A stretch of DNA of 64,000 nucleotides from positions 62,001-126,000 of the forward strand of contig NZ_LKBA01000019.1 in NCBI RefSeq assembly GCF_001307765.1. The letters run 5' to 3'. Positions 40,899-50,251 of the stretch are shown in pieces. Origin of the DNA: Aliiroseovarius crassostreae (GTDB lineage: Bacteria > Pseudomonadota > Alphaproteobacteria > Rhodobacterales > Rhodobacteraceae). Made by a program: the position numbers and the translations under genes. Position 1 is the stretch's first letter. Every line of letters starts with the position of its first letter. Below the pieces are notes generated by a model. It saw nothing but the letters and a program-made list of their open reading frames with translations. It made no database searches and was not told where the DNA came from.

Positions 40899-41274
40899 TC
40901 TGCACGAGGGATGTCGTAAATCCGAGTATTTTTCCCCGTTTTGGGCTTGGCGGGAACAAAACCTAGGATTGGTGAGTCTCTTTTCAAGCCCCCAAATATC
41001 ATGTTGCTGGAAAAAGGAGGTGTCCCGGGTGAGGTATCTCCTAAAATTTTGGTTAACAGGTGATGAAAATCACCCTGTTATTTTATGGGATTTTCAATGT
41101 AAACTCCTTATAAACAACGAGATATTTCACAAGTGAGGCAAGCTCTTGTGATAACATTCATAAACCCGAATATTTGCCCCGCTTGGTTGACCCGACACCG
41201 GTGCGGCGGTAAACCGCACATAGCTAGCAGAATGCGGATTTGCCCGGAACAGGGCCGCATAAAAGGAGCCACAC
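40899..41274. promoter_or_regulatory. Intergenic region before the nuo operon
   Basis: 376 bases without a gene. It includes a hairpin with a possible terminator role (41055-41079: AACAG/CTGTT outside GTGAT/ATCAC with one bulged base, then TTATTTTATGG) and the promoter listed separately. It also has an AT-rich part (about 41035-41160) that is unlike the surrounding GC-rich sequence and could hold further control sites. Confidence 0.5.
41187..41215 (+). promoter_or_regulatory. Sigma-70-type promoter candidate for nuo
   Basis: TTGACC, a 17-base spacer and TAAACC, 60 bases before nuoA. Spacing is ideal and the -35 matches five of six positions. A GCGGTAAACCGC palindrome overlaps the -10. Confidence 0.5.
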
Positions 41275-41640
41275 GTGGAAGACCTTCTCAGGGAATATCT
41301 CCCGATCATCATTTTCCTCGGACTTGCCATTGTCATCGGTCTTGTGCTGATCATCGCCGCCGTCGTCTTGGCTGTTCGCAATCCTGATCCCGAAAAACTC
41401 AGCGCTTATGAATGCGGTTTCAATGCATTTGATGACGCACGGATGAAGTTCGACGTCCGGTTCTACCTGGTATCGATCCTGTTCATCATTTTCGACCTGG
41501 AAATTGCTTTCCTGTTTCCCTGGGCCGTGGCCTTCAAAGGGGTTGGGCTGGTTGGCTTCTGGTCGATGATGGTGTTCCTTGCCGTGCTGACCATCGGCTT
41601 TGCATATGAGTGGAAGAAAGGGGCGCTCGAATGGGAGTGA
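41275..41640 (+). CDS. nuoA: NADH-quinone oxidoreductase subunit A
   Basis: Small membrane subunit of complex I (121 residues) with three helices: residues about 8-30, 62-82 and 88-110. The conserved loop [20 protein letters not shown] between helices 1 and 2 lies near the quinone chamber. It starts with GTG behind AAAAGGAG. nuoB overlaps its end by ten bases. Confidence 0.96.
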
Positions 41641-42164
41641 TGACCGGAGCAAACACGGCGCAGGGCGACCGTGAACACGCCACCCGCCTGCTGAATGATC
41701 AGCTGGCTGACAAGGGCTTTTTGCTGACCACCACCGATGACATCATCAACTGGGCCCGCACCGGGTCGCTGCACTGGATGACCTTTGGTCTGGCCTGTTG
41801 CGCCGTGGAAATGATGCACGCCTCGATGCCGCGCTATGACCTTGAACGGTATGGCATCGCGCCGCGTGCTTCTCCGCGTCAGTCGGATGTGATGATCGTG
41901 GCAGGGACGCTCACCAACAAAATGGCCCCCGCGCTGCGCAAGGTTTACGACCAGATGCCCGATCCGCGTTACGTGATCTCGATGGGGTCCTGCGCAAATG
42001 GTGGCGGGTATTACCACTATTCCTATTCGGTTGTGCGCGGCTGTGACCGCATTGTGCCGGTTGACGTCTATGTGCCCGGCTGTCCGCCGACCGCTGAGGC
42101 GCTGGTGTACGGCATCCTGCAGCTGCAACGCAAAATCCGCCGCACCGGCACGATTGTGAGGTAA
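41631..42164 (+). CDS. nuoB: NADH-quinone oxidoreductase subunit B
   Basis: Peripheral subunit that binds the terminal [4Fe-4S] cluster N2 next to quinone. The cluster ligands are in [11 protein letters not shown] (adjacent Cys pair), [20 protein letters not shown] and [11 protein letters not shown]. 177 residues from the ATG overlapping nuoA; an ATG three codons on is also possible. Four bases separate it from nuoC. Confidence 0.96.
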
Positions 42165-42167
42165 GCG

Positions 42168-42794
42168 ATGAGTGAAGCCCCGAATACCGCCAACCTGAAA
42201 GAGCTTGGCGCAATGCTGGAAGCAAAGCGCCCGGATTGCGTGCTGAGCTGGGAGGTTGCCTTTGGCGAGCTGAACGTCACCGTTCCGCTGTCGGCCATCC
42301 CCTCGTTCATCGAGTTCCTGAAGTCCGACAAGACCTGCAAATTCTCGACGCTCGTGGACCTGACAGCGGTGGATTACCCGTCGCGTGAGGAACGCTTCGA
42401 CGTGGTTTACCACTTCCTGTCGATGTACACCAACCAGCGCATCCGCGTGAAAGTGGCTGTGCGGGAAGAGGAAATGGTGCCGTCGATCACCGAGGTGCAC
42501 CCTTCGGCCGGCTGGTTCGAACGCGAAGTGTTCGACATGTTCGGTATCCTGTTCTCGGGTCACCCGGACCTGCGCCGCCTGCTGACGGATTACGGTTTCC
42601 GCGGCCATCCGCTGCGCAAGGATTTCCCGACCACCGGCTATACCGAAGTGCGCTATGACGAGGTTGAAAAACGCGTGGTTTATGAACCCGTGTCGCTGAC
42701 CCAGGATTACCGCCAGTTCGATTTCATGTCGCCATGGGAAGGGGCCAACTATGTCCTGCCCGGTGATGAGAAATCTGACGAGGCCGGAAAGTAA
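42168..42794 (+). CDS. nuoC: NADH-quinone oxidoreductase subunit C
   Basis: The 30-kDa subunit of complex I (208 residues), separate from NuoD as in most bacteria. The family motif is [20 protein letters not shown] followed by [17 protein letters not shown]. The Asp/Lys-rich end ([11 protein letters not shown]) is typical of alphaproteobacteria. It is followed after 17 bases by the sulfotransferase gene rather than nuoD. Confidence 0.96.
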
Positions 42795-42811
42795 TCGGGC
42801 AGGATCAGGGC

Positions 42812-43672
42812 ATGAGCGCGCAAAACATTCTTTACTGTGTAGGGGCACCGAAATCCGGCACCAGCTGGCTTTTCGACTATTTCTATTACCACCCAACAGC
42901 AAAGACGCGCGCGCTGAAGGAAATGCATTACTGGGACAGTCTTGAAGGCGGTCGTGGCGGGTTCTGGCTGGACCAGCACCGCGCCCGACGTGCGGATCTG
43001 GTCCTGGCCAACAAAACCGAGAAGAAGGCAGAAGCCAAGGCGTTTCAGGAAGCGGCCATCGCGGCAATTGACAACTGGGTCACTTGCTTTGATGGCCAGA
43101 CCCGTGACGACGCAGCGTATCTGGATTTCATCTCGGATCATGGCAAAGCCGGGCTGGCGGTGGATTTCACCCCGTCTTACGGATCTCTTTCGGCACAAAG
43201 CTTTCAAAAGATGGCGGATCTGTCCGAAAATGCCCGTTTCCTGTTTTTGATGCGTGACCCGGTGGAGCGGGTCCTGTCGCATCTGCGCATGGACAGCCAT
43301 GGGGACCTGGACGAGCTCAACCGCAAGATTGAGAAATTCCTCTCGGAAGAAGACAGCGATCTGCACATCCTGCGTTCGAATTACCGCCGCACGATCAACA
43401 ACCTGCTGAAGGTTGTCCCGCGCGAGCGTGTGCATTTCGAATATTACGAGACCCTGTTCTCGGACGATGCTATTCAACGCCTGTGCACTTTTGCAGGCCT
43501 TGAACCGGCCAAGGCCCTTTTTGAGAAACGCGTCCATAAAGGGCTGCGTTACCCGAATTTCGCGGCGCCCGTCGAAAAACTGCGACAGGCCCTGAACCCG
43601 CAATACAATTTCGTCGAAAAGTTCATGGGTGAACTGCCGGCGGAATGGACCCAGAAGATGGTGAACGTATGA
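42812..43672 (+). CDS. Sulfotransferase-family protein inside the nuo operon
   Basis: A PAPS-dependent sulfotransferase-type protein of 286 residues. The 5'-phosphosulfate loop is [19 protein letters not shown] at the N-terminus, and the 3'-phosphate-binding segment is [18 protein letters not shown] at about residue 145. The C-terminal third has [17 protein letters not shown], and the protein ends in a Tyr/Phe-rich tail. It is placed between nuoC and nuoD, 17 bases after one and overlapping the other by four, so it must be translated with complex I. The acceptor of the sulfate is unknown. No other sulfur gene is near. Confidence 0.88.
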
Positions 43673-44892
43673 TGGACGGAACCAAAGGCTTCAATGACGC
43701 CGAAACCGGCGAACAGAAGATCCGCAATTTCAATATTAACTTCGGCCCGCAACACCCGGCCGCGCACGGCGTGCTGCGGATGGTGCTGGAGTTGGATGGC
43801 GAGATCGTGGAACGCGCTGACCCGCATATCGGCCTGCTTCATCGCGGCACCGAAAAGCTGATGGAAAGCCGCACCTATCTGCAGAACCTTCCTTATTTCG
43901 ACCGGCTCGACTATGTGGCGCCGATGAACCAGGAACATGCCTGGTGTCTGGCGATCGAAAAGCTCGCCGGGGTCGAGGTGCCGCGTCGCGGGCAGCTGAT
44001 CCGCGTGCTGTATTCGGAAATTGGCCGGATCCTGAACCACCTGCTGAACATCACCACGCAGGCCATGGACGTGGGCGCGCTGACGCCGCCGCTCTGGGGC
44101 TTTGAAGAGCGTGAAAAGCTGATGATCTTTTACGAGCGCGCCTGCGGGGCCCGCCTGCACGCCAACTATTTCCGTCCCGGTGGTGTGCATCAGGACCTGC
44201 CGCCGGAGCTGATTGATGATATCGAAACCTGGGCCAATGAGTTCCCGGAAAAGATCGACGATATCGACGGGCTGCTGACCGAAAACCGCATCTTCAAACA
44301 GCGTAACGCCGATATTGGCGTCGTGAATGAAGAGGACATTTTGAACTGGGGCTATTCGGGCGTGATGGTGCGCGGCTCGGGTCTGGCTTGGGACTTGCGT
44401 CGTGCGCAACCCTATGAATGTTATGATGAATTTGACTTCCAGATCCCGGTTGGCAAGAACGGCGACTGTTACGACCGCTATCTCGTCCGCATGGAAGAGA
44501 TGCGCCAGTCGCTGAAAATCATGCATCAGGCGATTGCCAAACTGCGCGCGCCCGAAGGGCAGGGCGACGTTCTGGCCCGCGGCAAGCTGACCCCGCCGAA
44601 ACGCGGCGACATGAAGCGCGACATGGAAAGCCTGATCCACCACTTCAAGCTCTACACCGAAGGGTTCAAGGTTCCGGCAGGCGAAGTGTACGCCGCCGTG
44701 GAAGCCCCGAAAGGTGAGTTCGGCGTCTACCTCGTCTCTGACGGGTCCAACAAACCCTACCGCGCCAAGATCCGCGCGCCGGGGTATCTGCACCTTCAGT
44801 CGATGGATTACGTGGCCGGTGGCCACCAGCTCGCCGACGTCGCCGCCATTATCGGCACCATGGATATCGTGTTTGGGGAGATCGACCGCTAA
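43669..44892 (+). CDS. nuoD: NADH-quinone oxidoreductase subunit D
   Basis: The 49-kDa subunit lining the quinone site (407 residues). Diagnostic stretches are [20 protein letters not shown] with the quinone-near His, [16 protein letters not shown], and [13 protein letters not shown]-type [13 protein letters not shown], ending [18 protein letters not shown]. Start ATG overlaps the sulfotransferase stop; a second ATG directly after is nearly equivalent. The stop overlaps nuoE by one base. Confidence 0.96.
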
Positions 44893-46052
44893 TGCTCCGC
44901 CGTTTGCATCATGAACAGCCCGAAAGCTTTGCTTTCACACCCGCCAACCTTACTTGGGCGGAAGGGCAGATTACGAAATATCCCGAAGGGCGTCAGGCCT
45001 CGGCGGTGATCCCGCTTCTGTGGCGTGCCCAGGAACAGGAAGGCTGGCTGTCCAAGCCCGCGATCGAAGCCGTGGCTGACATGCTTGGCATGGCCTATAT
45101 CCGCGTGCTGGAAGTGGCGTCCTTCTACTTCATGTTCCAGCTGCAACCGGTTGGATCCGTGGCGCATATCCAGATTTGCGGCACCACGTCCTGCATGATT
45201 TGCGGCGCGGAAGACCTGATTGCCGTCTGTCGTGAGAAGATTGCGGACAAGCCGCATCAACTCTCGGAAGATGGCAAGTTCAGCTGGGAAGAGGTCGAGT
45301 GCCTTGGCTCCTGCACCAACGCGCCGATGGCGCAGATCGGCAAAGATTACTTCGAGGATCTGACCGCCGAAGGTTTTGCCAAGATGATCGACGAGATGGC
45401 CGCAGGCACCGTGCCGGTGCCCGGTCCGCAAAACGGTCGTTACGGGTCGGAACCGCTGGCCGGTCTGACCTCGCTCACCGAATTTGAAAGCGGCAAGGCG
45501 CAGTATAACGCCTCGGTGCAGCTGGCAACGGATATTGGCGACAGCATCAAGCGGATCGACGGCACCGAAGTGCCGCTCTCGACCCCGTGGCTGGGCAAGA
45601 ATGCCACCGGCGCCAAGACGGCCCCGCCGAAAGCGGCGGACGCGGGCAAGCCTGCCAACCAGCAGAAGAAAGCAGCCAAACCTGCGGCAGCGACGGCTGA
45701 GAAAGCTGCGCCTGCCAAGAAAGCCAAAGCTGACAAGGCAGAGGCCCCTGCTGCCACCACTGGTGAGGCCAGGAAGCCGCGCGTCATGAAAGCGCCGCGC
45801 AAGGCCGGCGCCGATGATCTCAAACAGCTCAAAGGTGTTGGTCCCAAGCTGGAGCAGACCCTGAACGAACTGGGGTTCTGGCATTTCGACCAGATCGCAA
45901 AATGGACCGCGGACGAGATTGCCTGGGTGGATGACAATCTGAAATTCAAAGGCCGGATCGAACGGGATGGTTGGGTCGAACAGGCCAAGATCCTTGCCGA
46001 GGGCGGCGAGACCGCGTTCTCGAACAAGGTAAAAAAGGGCGACGTCTATTAA
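44892..46052 (+). CDS. nuoE: NADH-quinone oxidoreductase subunit E with C-terminal extension
   Basis: The 24-kDa [2Fe-2S] subunit (386 residues, twice the usual 160-200). The N-terminal thioredoxin-like domain has all four ligands: CGTTSC at about residues 97-102 and CLGSC at about 137-141. After residue 235 comes an Ala/Lys/Pro-rich linker ([20 protein letters not shown]), then a helix-hairpin-helix-like domain ([37 protein letters not shown]). This tail is known from Rhodobacterales NuoE but has no assigned role. It begins at the nuoD stop. Confidence 0.95.
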
Positions 46053-46067
46053 GGGCGGAATGAAAGT

Positions 46068-46301
46068 ATGACGATGGCACAGGACCCATTGAACAGTAAT
46101 GGCCGGGACGGGCGCGTGGCGGGGATCGTCATTGCCTTGACCGGTGCGCTGTGGGTCGGTGCTGCCTGGGTCGGGAAAAGCCTCGAATGGTCCAATCGGA
46201 CCATGGCGCTGGTGGATCTGATGGCCCTGGCCGGGTTTGTGTTTGGCCTGGTCTTAACGTATCGGATCTGGCGCAAGAGCCGCCGGAATGATGAAGGATA
46301 A
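46068..46301 (+). CDS. Small membrane protein, DUF5337-like
   Basis: A 77-residue protein with two hydrophobic segments: VAGIVIALTGALWVGAAWVG and MALVDLMALAGFVFGLVLTY, separated by a short polar turn, and a basic C-terminus (RIWRKSRRNDEG). It sits between nuoE and nuoF and is co-oriented, with six bases before nuoF. I recognise the type as DUF5337, a small gene of Rhodobacterales nuo clusters. Role unknown; assembly or regulation of complex I is a guess. Confidence 0.8.
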   Translation: MTMAQDPLNSNGRDGRVAGIVIALTGALWVGAAWVGKSLEWSNRTMALVDLMALAGFVFGLVLTYRIWRKSRRNDEG

Positions 46302-46307
46302 GAGCGA

Positions 46308-47603
46308 ATGCTGCAGGATAAAGACCGGATCTTTACCAACCTTTATGGCATGCACGAGCGCACCCTTGCGGGCGCCAAGGCACGTGGCCACTGGGACGGC
46401 ACAGCCGGGATCATCAAGAAGGGTCGCGACTGGATCATCGAACAGATGAAGGCCTCGGGGCTGCGCGGGCGTGGGGGCGCGGGCTTCCCGACCGGTCTGA
46501 AATGGTCGTTCATGCCGAAGGAAAGCGACGGTCGCCCGGCCTATCTGGTGATCAATGCGGATGAGTCCGAACCCGGCACCTGTAAAGACCGCGAAATCAT
46601 GCGCCACGATCCGCACACGCTGATCGAAGGCGCGCTGATTGCGTCTTTTGCGATGAATGCCAACACGGCCTACATCTATATCCGCGGCGAATTCATCCGC
46701 GAGCGTGAGGCTCTGCAGGCCGCGATAGATGAAGCCTATGATGCGGGCCTGCTCGGCAAGAACGCAGCAGGGTCGGGCTGGGATTTCGACCTGTTCCTGC
46801 ATCACGGTGCCGGTGCCTATATCTGTGGTGAGGAAACTGCGCTGATCGAAAGCCTTGAAGGCAAAAAAGGCATGCCGCGCATGAAGCCGCCCTTCCCGGC
46901 GGGGGCTGGCCTGTATGGCTGCCCGACCACGGTGAACAATGTGGAATCGATTGCCGTTGTGCCGACCATCCTGCGGCGCGGCCCGGAATGGTTTACCTCG
47001 TTTGGGCGTCCGAACAATGCGGGCACCAAGCTTTTCGGCATTTCGGGACATGTGAACAATCCCTGTGTGGTCGAAGAAGCGATGTCGATCTCGTTCGAAG
47101 AGCTGATCGAAAAGCATTGCGGCGGTATTCGCGGCGGTTGGGACAACCTCAAGGCTGTGATCCCCGGCGGTTCTTCGGTGCCCTGTGTGCGTGGTGAAAA
47201 CATGCGCGATGCGATCATGGATTTCGACTATCTGCGCAATGATCTTGGTTCGGGTCTCGGCACTGCGGCCGTGATCGTAATGGATCAGCAGACCGACATC
47301 ATCAAGGCCATCTGGCGCCTGTCGAAATTCTATAAACACGAAAGCTGCGGCCAGTGCACGCCGTGCCGCGAAGGCACCGGTTGGATGATGCGGGTGATGG
47401 ATCGCCTGATGCGGGGCGAAGCAGATGTGGAAGAGATCGACATGCTGTGGGATGTCACCAAGCAGGTGGAAGGTCACACGATCTGCGCCCTTGGTGATGC
47501 AGCCGCCTGGCCGATCCAGGGTCTGATCCGCAATTTCCGCGACGAGATCGAAGATCGCATCCGGGTCAACAAACAGGGCAAAGCCAGCATCGCGGCTGAG
47601 TAA
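46308..47603 (+). CDS. nuoF: NADH-quinone oxidoreductase subunit F
   Basis: The 51-kDa subunit with FMN, the NADH site and a [4Fe-4S] cluster (431 residues). The NADH/FMN region has [20 protein letters not shown] and [19 protein letters not shown]. The cluster ligands are in [18 protein letters not shown] plus a Cys in [13 protein letters not shown]. It ends in AAE with normal length. Twenty bases later a possible micro-ORF begins. Confidence 0.97.
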
Positions 47604-47623
47604 GAACAGGAAGAAACGACGTC

Positions 47624-47752
47624 ATGAAAACATGCCCCCCCATGCGTAACATCTTGGAAGCAGGCGTTAAATCGCCTGCTGACGGGCGTTGTTATTGCAT
47701 GTCATGGGGGCGGGTTTCCACCTTTTGCACAGCAAAAGGAGTGATTTCATGA
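47624..47752 (+). CDS. Possible Cys-rich micro-ORF between nuoF and the DUF5333 gene
   Basis: A 42-codon reading frame giving MKTCPPMRNILEAGVKSPAD, then Cys at positions 23, 25 and 35 as well as 4. Its TGA overlaps the next ATG by four bases (ATGA), the same coupling used elsewhere in this operon. An AGGAAG lies 12 bases upstream. The frame runs through two nested hairpins (see separate entry), so an alternative is that it is a structured spacer rather than a gene. Coding is unproven. Confidence 0.35.
   Translation: MKTCPPMRNILEAGVKSPADGRCYCMSWGRVSTFCTAKGVIS
47637..47710 (+). promoter_or_regulatory. Nested hairpin between nuoF and the DUF5333 gene
   Basis: An inner stem AGCAGGCG / CGCCTGCT (47659-47680, six-base loop) is enclosed by an outer pairing of CCCCCATG (47637-47644) with CATGGGGG (47703-47710). 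No T-run follows. It could slow ribosomes or RNases or set expression of the downstream genes. Confidence 0.5.
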
Positions 47753-48159
47753 CCAAGTTCAAAACCGTTCTCGCCAGTGTTCTTGCCGCAAATATCGCCA
47801 CGTCCGCATTTGCGGTGGACTACGCGGTGATGCGCAAAGATACGCGGGTGCATAACGAACTGCTTTGGGCGGCTCTTGCCCATTTGATCGACGAAAACTG
47901 CGATACGCTGAGCCTGCGCAAGTTTCGACTGTTCAACAAGGCGATGGCCCTTCAGGCCTATGCGCATTCTCTGGGCTACTCGATCCGTGAGATCGTGGCC
48001 TATGTGGACAGCGAGGAAGAGCAGGAACGGTTTCGGGCCATTGCCGAACCGATGCTTGCGGATATGGGCGCCCGAAAGGGCGACGAGGAAAGTTACTGTG
48101 CGGTGGGCCGCGCAGAAATGGATAAAGGAACTTTTACGGGCAAGCTTCTGTCGGAATGA
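47749..48159 (+). CDS. Secreted protein, DUF5333-like
   Basis: A 136-residue protein with a signal peptide (MTKFKTVLASVLAANIATSAFA). The mature part is mostly helical with charged patches: VHNELLWAALAHLIDENCDT, LFNKAMALQAYAHSLGYSIR and AYVDSEEEQERFRAIAEPML, plus two Cys. I recognise the type as DUF5333, found in nuo operons of Rhodobacterales. A good AGGAG precedes the ATG. Its function is unknown; a periplasmic role next to complex I is inferred from the signal and context. Confidence 0.8.
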   Translation: MTKFKTVLASVLAANIATSAFAVDYAVMRKDTRVHNELLWAALAHLIDENCDTLSLRKFRLFNKAMALQAYAHSLGYSIREIVAYVDSEEEQERFRAIAEPMLADMGARKGDEESYCAVGRAEMDKGTFTGKLLSE

Positions 48160-48232
48160 CGGCAGGGCCTGCGGGTAAAGGCAAGGAAAGGGCAGGGGGC
48201 ATGGGCCTCTTGCAGGATGAAAAGGGACCGTG

Positions 48233-50251
48233 ATGAGCGACCTGAAAAAGATCGTCATTGACGATATGGAAGTCGAAGTGGATGGCGCGATGACGCTGAT
48301 CCAGGCTTGTGAGGTAGCAGGCGTGGAAGTGCCGCGTTTCTGTTATCACGAGCGTCTGTCGATTGCCGGCAACTGCCGCATGTGCCTTGTCGAAGTTGTG
48401 GGCGGCCCGCCCAAACCCGCAGCCTCCTGCGCGATGCAGGTGCGTGATCTGCGCCCGGGGCCGGAAGGCCAGCCGCCGGTGGTGAAAACCAACTCGCCGA
48501 TGGTCAAGAAGGCCCGCGAAGGCGTGATGGAATTTATGCTGATCAACCACCCGCTGGATTGCCCGATCTGCGATCAGGGTGGCGAATGTGACCTGCAGGA
48601 CCAGGCGGTTGCCTATGGCCTGTCCGGCTCGCGGTTCAAGGAACAGAAACGTGCCGTGGACGATCTGGATCTTGGTCCGCTTGTGTCGACCACGATGACC
48701 CGCTGCATTTCCTGCACCCGCTGTGTGCGCTTCACGACCGAGGTCGCGGGCATCACCCAGATGGGGCAGACCGGTCGCGGTGAAGACGCGGAAATCACCA
48801 GCTATCTGAACCAGACTTTGGACAGCAACCTGCAGGGCAATATCATTGACCTCTGCCCGGTTGGCGCGCTGACCTCAAAACCTTATGCGTTCACCGCCCG
48901 TCCGTGGGAACTGACCAAGACCGAAACCATTGATGTGATGGACGCTCTGGGCTCAAATATTCGTGTCGACACCAAGGGCCGTGAAGTGAAACGGATCCTG
49001 CCGCGCAACCATGATGGCGTGAACGAGGAATGGATTTCCGACAAGACCCGCTTCATCTGGGACGGTCTGCGCCGTCAGCGCCTGGACACGCCTTATATCC
49101 GTGAAAATGGCAAGCTGCGCAAAGCAGGTTGGGGCGAAGCTCTGACCGCAGCAGCCGAGGCGATGAAAGGCAAGAAGGTTGCAGGTCTCATTGGGGATCT
49201 GGCCAATGTCGAAATGGCGTTCTCGCTCAAGACCCTGATCGAAGGGCTGGGCGGCAAGGTGGAATGCCGTGTTGATAATGCGCGCCTGCCCACCGACAAC
49301 CGTTCGGGCTACGTGGGTACCGCGTCGATCGAAGACATCGACAATGCAAAGTTCATTCAGCTCATTGGCACCAACCCGCGTGTCGAAGCGCCGGTTCTGA
49401 ACGCGCGGATCCGCAAGGCCTGCCTGAAAGGTGCCAATGTTGGTCTGGTGGGGGACGCCGTTGATCTGACTTATGAATATGCACATGTCGGCAATGATCG
49501 CGCCGCTCTCGAGAGCCTTTTGAACAAAGACTATGGCGCCGTGAAAGAGGCGCCGTCTGTTGTGATCGCTGGCATGGGCGCGCTGCGCGAGGCGGATGGT
49601 CTCGCGGTTCTCGCGGCTGCGATGAAGCTTGCCGAAGATACCGGCTCCAAACTGATGGTTCTGCACACGGCCGCTGGCCGCGTGGGCGCGCTGGATGTGG
49701 GGGCGGTGACCGAAGGCGGCATCGAGGCGGCCACCCATGATGCAGAGGTGATCTTCAACATGGGCGCGGACGAGATCGACATCGATGCGGGCCCAACCGT
49801 GATTTACATGGGCAGCCACGGGGATCGCGGTGCCATGCGCGCCGATATCATCCTGCCGGGGGCGGCTTATACGGAAGAGGCTGGTCTTTTCGTCAACACC
49901 GAAGGCCGTCCGCAGCTTGCGCAACGCGCCGCTTTCCCGGTGGGTGAGGCCAAGGAAAACTGGGCCATTCTGCGCGCCCTGTCGGCCGAACTGGGTCAGA
50001 CCCTTCCGTGGGACAGCCTCGCGGGTCTGCGTCAGGCAATGGTTGACGCGGTGCCGCATCTGGCTGCCATCGACCAGGTTGTTGAAAACAGCTGGCAACC
50101 GCTCACCACGGGGTCACTTGGCAAAGCGAGCTTCCGCTATGTGATCGGCGATTTCTACCTGACCAACCCGATTGCACGCGCCTCTGAGGTGATGGCAGAG
50201 CTGTCTGCCCAGGCACGGGCGCGTCAGTCTGAAAAGCTGGCAGCAGAGTAA
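48233..50251 (+). CDS. nuoG: NADH-quinone oxidoreductase subunit G
   Basis: The 75-kDa subunit with several Fe-S clusters (672 residues). The N-terminal ferredoxin domain has [38 protein letters not shown] and [12 protein letters not shown], with the CPVGAL segment, hold the remaining ligands. The C-terminal molybdopterin-oxidoreductase-like part lacks cofactor ligands, as usual. An AAAGGGA site precedes the ATG; GTG one codon earlier is a weaker option. Confidence 0.96.

Follow-up and report, generated by a model that had tools for sequence, protein, structure and literature searches.

A sulfotransferase gene between nuoC and nuoD in Aliiroseovarius crassostreae and other Rhodobacteraceae: a probably old and exchangeable position inside a core respiratory operon

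In Aliiroseovarius crassostreae (Rhodobacteraceae) the nuo operon of respiratory complex I harbours a sulfotransferase (ST) gene between nuoC and nuoD. The gene was analyzed in a stretch of 64,000 nucleotides (the window) of the host assembly (3.72 Mb in 27 contigs, rated 100% complete; the window is in contig C20) and compared with nuo operons across the family. The encoded protein is a member of the known PAPS-dependent sulfotransferase superfamily, with sulfate transfer from PAPS as its predicted activity. What sets it apart is where it lies: the position is old and probably exchangeable, within a core respiratory operon, and is occupied by enzymes that change fast and most likely decorate the envelope. 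We consider it about an even chance that this position is an exchangeable slot with a lineage-specific ST acting on an envelope glycan or glycolipid, complex I being the carrier of its expression and not its substrate. A literature search revealed no paper describing an ST between nuoC and nuoD in the open-licence literature; an earlier mention elsewhere is possible.

The ST gene and its surroundings

The ST reading frame (42812-43672, + strand) is complete, with an ATG start and a TGA stop, and encodes 286 amino acids. Its neighbours are nuoA, nuoB, nuoC, nuoD, nuoE and nuoF. The upstream flank is nuoC (42168-42794, + strand), recognized by profile matches, whose stop codon ends 17 nt before the ST. 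The downstream flank is nuoD (43669-44892, + strand), and its ATG shares the letters ATGA with the ST stop. The initial annotation had described the gene as locked into the operon by a 17-base gap and a 4-base overlap, and the coordinates (42794, 42812 and 43669-43672) bear this out. The protein was matched by the Pfam families Sulfotransfer_3 (PF13469; 46 bits, cut-off 27, E 9.7e-12) and Sulfotransfer_1 (PF00685; 35.7 bits, cut-off 22); no match was found in NCBIfam. At E <= 0.001, Sulfotransfer_3 matched 24 of the 24 members of set A2 and Sulfotransfer_1 matched 23. A chance reading frame was ruled out, as synonymous change dominates between the copies of the congeners.

The host genome carries one close copy of the ST and two other Sulfotransfer_3 loci, the one a long frame that is repeat-rich by eye, the other located between WbqC-like and GT2 genes. 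It also has an APS kinase match in an open frame of 714 amino acids. Co-occurrence with APS kinase was uninformative as a test of PAPS use, the kinase being found in 367 of 394 genomes of the family. Codon use and tree were compared with those of the neighbouring genes, as proposed in the initial annotation. No foreign base composition was seen (GC3 0.666 against 0.643-0.762 in 11 neighbouring genes), and the codon index of 0.647 is within the range of these genes (0.582-0.776); the ST tree conflicts with that of NuoB, NuoC and NuoD (see below). Among 50,697 phage records no copy of the ST was matched at E 0.001, PADLOC returned no match to a defence gene, and no tandem repeats were present at 41000-46400.

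A consensus scan of 40900-48300 yielded 4 promoter-like sites (2.6 in shuffles) and 12 terminator-like sites (7.7 in shuffles, sd 2.8). Two promoter-like sites (43582-43609 and 43646-43673, + strand) and a terminator-like hairpin (43496-43516) are situated within the ST, so that nuoD may have a promoter of its own. Two further peculiarities of the operon were observed. The nuoE gene (44892-46052) is extended, the Pfam match covering residues 25-169 of 386; beyond it come a long stretch rich in Ala and Lys and then a C-terminal portion. A gene for a DUF5333 protein (47689-48159) is located between nuoF and nuoG as another extra gene.

Conserved motifs and fold

The 5'-phosphosulfate-binding loop (residues 11-20; 42842-42871, + strand) and the 3'-phosphate-binding motif RDPVERVLS (residues 148-156; 43253-43279, + strand), which we take to be the PAPS-binding motifs, are both intact. 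This had been claimed from the single sequence and was confirmed by comparison of 73 nuo-located STs, the window included, in which the motif residues are invariant or nearly so. Residues G11, A12, G16, W19, K36, Y123, M134, R148, P150, R153 and S156 are found in 73 of 73, as are Y191, Y265, P276 and W279; K14 is present in 70, with R in the other 3. A third motif, KEMHYWD (residues 36-42; 42917-42937, + strand), was recognized by conservation in the same 73 STs and by profile alignment to 1t8t and 3rnl. In the profile alignment E37 of this motif, present in 72 of the 73, is matched to the E-H-F-F Glu in heparan sulfate (HS) 3-O-sulfotransferases, presumably the catalytic base of these enzymes.

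A profile of 24 nuo STs found 3rnl, a protein of Alicyclobacillus acidocaldarius annotated merely as sulfotransferase, as its best match in the PDB (E 9.7e-21, at 20% identity to the ST), and HS 3-O-sulfotransferases at E about 1e-9. The alignment to 1t8t pairs the Lys of the loop, the Glu of the third motif, both Arg and Ser in the 3'-phosphate site, and a Tyr further along the chain. An AlphaFold2 model of the ST was of moderate quality (pLDDT 78.2, pTM 0.79), and the top 31 Foldseek rows obtained with it consisted entirely of sulfotransferases or domains of this type. In VIA-align the 16 highest-scoring structures (Z 12.9-14.5) were HS 3-O- and N-sulfotransferases, 3rnl (Z 14.3) and one olefin-synthase domain. 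The HS 3-O-sulfotransferases (6xl8, 1t8t, 1vkj) and the NDST domain (8ccy, 1nst) resemble the ST in fold over 221-230 residues, with Z 13.1-14.5, a tie with 3rnl. ST domains of polyketide and olefin synthases scored 12.3-12.9, whereas tyrosylprotein STs (at most 11.4) and cytosolic STs (at most 9.8) both remained below the HS types. For the HS 3-O-sulfotransferases the likeness extends to the aligned PAPS and E-H-F-F motifs; however, identity to the HS enzymes is only 12-22%, the ST is bacterial and nuo-encoded, and a glycosaminoglycan substrate is not indicated.

Distribution and descent of nuo-located STs

nuoD was located in 381 of 394 genomes of the family, with locations listed for 150. 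Regions upstream of nuoD were taken from 63 of 149 listed genomes (the host itself excluded) and from 77 of 231 unlisted ones; this sample of 140 was random except in its last step, in which 77 of 97 drawn genomes were kept by handle order. Some regions were cut by contig ends, and nuoC was in view in 139 of 140. An intact ST was found in the nuo operon of 44 of the 140 genomes, nearly all of different genera (20 of 63 and 24 of 77 loci, a weighted 31% of the family). The survey of nuo operons that had been suggested in the initial annotation therefore excludes occurrence in a single strain. With the ST as a protein query (P0001), matches at E <= 1e-10 were obtained in 164 of 394 genomes of the family, whether in nuo or elsewhere. 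A scan based on the ST itself gave 10 loci, nine of Aliiroseovarius and one of an alphaproteobacterial MAG, with the gene between nuoC and nuoD in all 10; these were found via the ST and have no bearing on prevalence.

Apart from the window, 72 nuo-located STs were collected, of which 69 lie between nuoC and nuoD. The remaining three are those of G070, between nuoB and nuoC, of G334, at a contig end, and of G184, with other genes next; in the latter two the ST comes after nuoC and no nuoD is in view. The operon of G184 (L183, 3386-8800) seems broken, nuoABC and the ST being followed by other genes with nuoD absent from the ~4 kb in view. Of 289 genomes drawn from across the class, 7 had a match to the ST profile at E <= 1e-25. 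Four of these are outside Rhodobacteraceae and have no nuo genes within about 1.5 kb on either side of the ST. Within the limits of this one draw, the arrangement appears to be confined to Rhodobacteraceae.

In a tree of 91 STs, 18 of them outsiders, the label "nuo-located" required 3 changes, compared to 16.7 in shuffles (0 of 500 as low); in a larger tree (102 rows, 29 outsiders) 4 changes were required, compared to 25.6. This argues that nuo residence had essentially a single origin, with few moves since, and that the nuo-located STs form essentially one clade relative to the outsiders chosen, 18 hand-picked weaker matches and 11 more in the larger tree. Hits below 250 amino acids, L165 and repeats of one gene per genome were left out of the tree of 91 STs. 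On a poorly resolved nuoD tree of 159 genomes, enriched for carriers and counting G269 as a carrier although its ST frame is interrupted, presence of the ST required 30 changes, compared to 50.6 in shuffles. Presence thus appears clustered on this tree, yet with much loss or regain.

The STs are fast-changing. Across 53 genomes the median amino acid difference was 0.625 for the ST, 0.254 for NuoC and 0.134 for NuoD. Distances of ST and NuoD correlated weakly, with rho 0.23 (15 of 999 permutations as high), possibly in part a matter of saturation of the ST, those of ST and NuoC hardly, with 0.117 (136 of 999), and those of NuoC and NuoD with 0.411 (0 of 999). The rows of this test were genomes with a single nuo ST and long enough NuoC and NuoD, 63 at first and then 53; the larger set, which includes the ten near copies, gave 0.256, 0.219 and 0.381, respectively. 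Where testable, the nuo STs are under purifying selection: dN/dS was 0.072-0.261 for the ST and 0.040-0.091 for nuoC in the same 10 Aliiroseovarius pairs. These are 10 of the 45 pairs among 10 congener loci, a set of congeners' alleles to which the allele of the window does not belong.

Contents of the nuoC-nuoD gap

In 45 of the 139 loci showing both genes, the gap between nuoC and nuoD is shorter than 60 nt. The other gaps hold an ST, a small ORF or a lumazine-binding-like ORF, sometimes together. The small ORF (57-101 amino acids) was seen in 23 loci; it is hydrophobic by eye, and its representative had no Pfam match. An ORF with a lumazine-binding-like representative was seen in 11 (gaps with these two types of ORF occur among L042-L181). 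The ST stop is located -4 to +5 nt from the nuoD start codon, taken as the in-frame ATG or GTG nearest to the stop, in 40 of 45 ST copies. The ST is not needed for such coupling, because in 44 of the 95 loci without ST nuoC overlaps nuoD or ends within 20 nt of it. Relics of the ST, either fragments or interrupted frames, are present in at least 4 of the 140 loci (L061, L136, L144, L165), as judged from a check that covered 7 loci. Three genomes (G259, G312, G187) have two nuo STs; in G259 the copies sharing the slot are 73% different from each other, and the same figure applies to G312.

Probable exchange of the ST in A. crassostreae

Compared to its congeners, the window differs by 10-15% in NuoC and by 54-55% in the ST, whereas the congener pairs listed at a like NuoC distance differ by 26-29% in the ST. 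The STs of the congeners are nearer (34-41% difference) to that of G352, a genome of another genus. In a concatenated NuoB/C/D tree of 29 chosen rows the window falls inside Aliiroseovarius (support 99/95), and AU tests rejected a position outside this genus (p 0.009; p 0.001 against a group of Aliiroseovarius and G352). The ST tree groups the ST of the window with those of G334 and G229 (support 96/90), and an AU test on 30 chosen rows rejected one clade of the window and Aliiroseovarius STs (p 0.007). The latter test is weakened by the long branch of the window ST (0.98) and by the fact that the tested group was written down after the first tree had been seen; G334, a sister of the window ST, has no nuoD in view and stands outside the NuoB/C/D tree.

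The DNA identity profile against the Aliiroseovarius locus L032 runs from 90-96% at the end of nuoC to 73% in the first ST block and 44-66% in the ST core, then to 88% in the last ST block and 82-90% in nuoD up to its last few codons. With NuoB/C/D inside Aliiroseovarius and the ST outside it in the AU tests, the ST core was therefore probably exchanged in place, the simplest reading of the tree conflict together with this profile. The 3' end of the ST (residues 263 to stop; 43598-43672, + strand) is nearly the same as in the congeners by block comparison. In the last block (about residues 274-286) identity to the congeners is 76-84% in amino acids and 87-89% in nucleotides, against 28-68% in nucleotides for the core blocks, and the conserved tail is also common to G352. 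The tail may mark the edge of a recombination event, or may reflect a constraint on the protein tail or on the start region of nuoD. The initial annotation had considered that the gene might be a recent passenger. This does not hold for the location, which is old, and may hold for the window's own allele, apparently exchanged in place.

Relatives outside the nuo operon and the acceptor of sulfate

Clues to the substrate come from relatives of the ST outside nuo operons. Among nine plasmid records with a relative, seven distinct contexts were inspected, of which five are polysaccharide gene clusters, on plasmids of Sulfitobacter indolifex, Sulfitobacter guttiformis, Leisingera thetidis, Thalassococcus and Tateyamaria. 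These five are of the same ST family and the same bacterial order, and where they align with the protein of the window they are 25-31% identical to it. They differ in lying among glycosyltransferase, nucleotide-sugar, rfb or polysaccharide-export genes and not in nuo, and four of them (L212, L215, L216, L217) are members of a clade distinct from the nuo STs. The exception is the relative of S. guttiformis (L213), which is part of the closest non-nuo group. This group consists of five loci. The neighbours are rfb and GT61 genes in L213, an ABC-2 permease in L198, GT2 (with a GT61 match below cut-off) in L199, catalase and Tex in L189, and ABC transporter and acyltransferase genes in L191. Large fusions of an alpha/beta hydrolase and a sulfotransferase were seen near polysaccharide or glycosyltransferase genes in L198 (2391-4772), L199 (3200-5677) and L213 (7206-9722), based on Pfam for the former two and on annotation and ST match for L213. 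L184 is identical to the Thalassococcus protein and counts with it as one observation. The relative in L187 has a GT4-type neighbour, and the neighbours in L182, L190 and L194 are mixed. The Dinoroseobacter shibae relative is a partial match adjoining transposition genes.

STs in sulfated polysaccharide loci of marine bacteria and a cyanobacterium reportedly lie inside the polysaccharide cluster. Around the ST of the window no such cluster was found, its neighbours being nuo genes, and no glycan gene adjoins the ST in the nuo operon. The contexts of the relatives point towards a sugar acceptor but are no proof of one. The substrate class is deduced from the fold and from relatives of 25-31% identity, and an envelope sugar is most likely. 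Among the substrates suggested in the initial annotation, this is also the one best supported by fold and relatives' contexts. A precedent for sulfated surface polysaccharides in such bacteria is provided by the descriptions of sulfated capsular or exopolysaccharide loci in marine bacteria (PMC11641403, PMC11766843) and in a cyanobacterium (PMC8205485), which are likened to the nuo STs by description and not by sequence.

An unlikely alternative, though one with some footing, is that the ST sulfates the hydroxyl of a lipid or acyl chain, in a sulfolipid or aminolipid, and not a glycan. A separate, well-supported ST clade (10 rows, support 99) includes the relative on the Ruegeria pomeroyi megaplasmid (L214), whose gene has fabB on one side and fabA on the other, with irrA nearby. 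It also includes L193, where the neighbours encode a ketoacyl-synthase, FabA and a FUR-family protein; some members of this clade stand beside fabB/fabA. The agreement of L193 and L214 in fab genes and an Irr/FUR-type regulator suggests another ST at a housekeeping locus. However, the fab-adjacent clade is not the nuo clade, three of the five loci in the nearest non-nuo group (L213, L198, L199), though not the other two, have neighbours for sugar metabolism, glycosyl transfer or ABC-2 export, and the fold groups with glycan enzymes of the HS type. Cytosolic sulfotransferases of the superfamily sulfate small molecules, and the fast divergence of the ST would fit variable acceptors. Sulfation of a small secreted metabolite or signal is nevertheless quite unlikely: there is no biosynthetic gene beside the ST, the neighbours all being nuo, and the cytosolic small-molecule STs scored lower than the glycan-type rows.

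The tight insertion and the nuoD overlap speak for a role of the ST in modifying complex I itself, the quinone pocket or a lipid bound there. Such a role is very improbable because 96 of the 140 sampled nuoD-bearing loci lack an intact ST in the nuo operon, the place to which the count applies. Among the common residues of NuoB, NuoC and NuoD none tracks the ST beyond permutation (73, 98 and 186 of 500 permutations, respectively, reached the observed maximum). Divergence of the ST is also much faster than that of NuoC and NuoD, and its tree departs from theirs. A quinone-pocket ligand, put forward in the initial annotation, thus finds no support. A subunit or an assembly or maturation factor of complex I was rejected as the best reading, most sampled nuo operons being without an intact ST and no residue of the three subunits tracking it. 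It is just as hard to credit that the ST is a functionless passenger, kept since its removal would disturb nuoD translation. Repeated loss, the relics and the nuoD overlap are consistent with this, but dN/dS of 0.07-0.26 in congener pairs, the motif residues invariant in 73 of 73 STs and the coupling seen at ST-less loci argue against it.

Implications for the Rhodobacteraceae

With an envelope glycan or glycolipid as the acceptor, an ST allele of a lineage long resident between nuoC and nuoD would take sulfate from PAPS, the host encoding APS kinase, and would most likely place it on a carbohydrate hydroxyl of an envelope polysaccharide, LPS or glycolipid precursor in the cytoplasm. Residence in the nuo operon would provide steady expression through translational coupling, and the conserved genes on either side could act as homology arms by which species swap alleles that differ in specificity. 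More tentatively, the nuoC-nuoD junction might be a standing exchange slot at which species trade, stack and discard ST alleles, rapidly changing surface sulfation (for instance against phages or grazers) by an enzyme expressed in step with respiration; we regard this extension as possible but doubtful.

If true, a housekeeping respiratory operon would double as the delivery and exchange site of an envelope-decorating enzyme, and the cell surface would be diversified outside any polysaccharide island. This would explain why roughly one in three of the sampled Rhodobacteraceae genomes has an ST within nuo. Searches for sulfated molecules on the surface of these bacteria, a large and mostly marine group, would then have a single gene to target.
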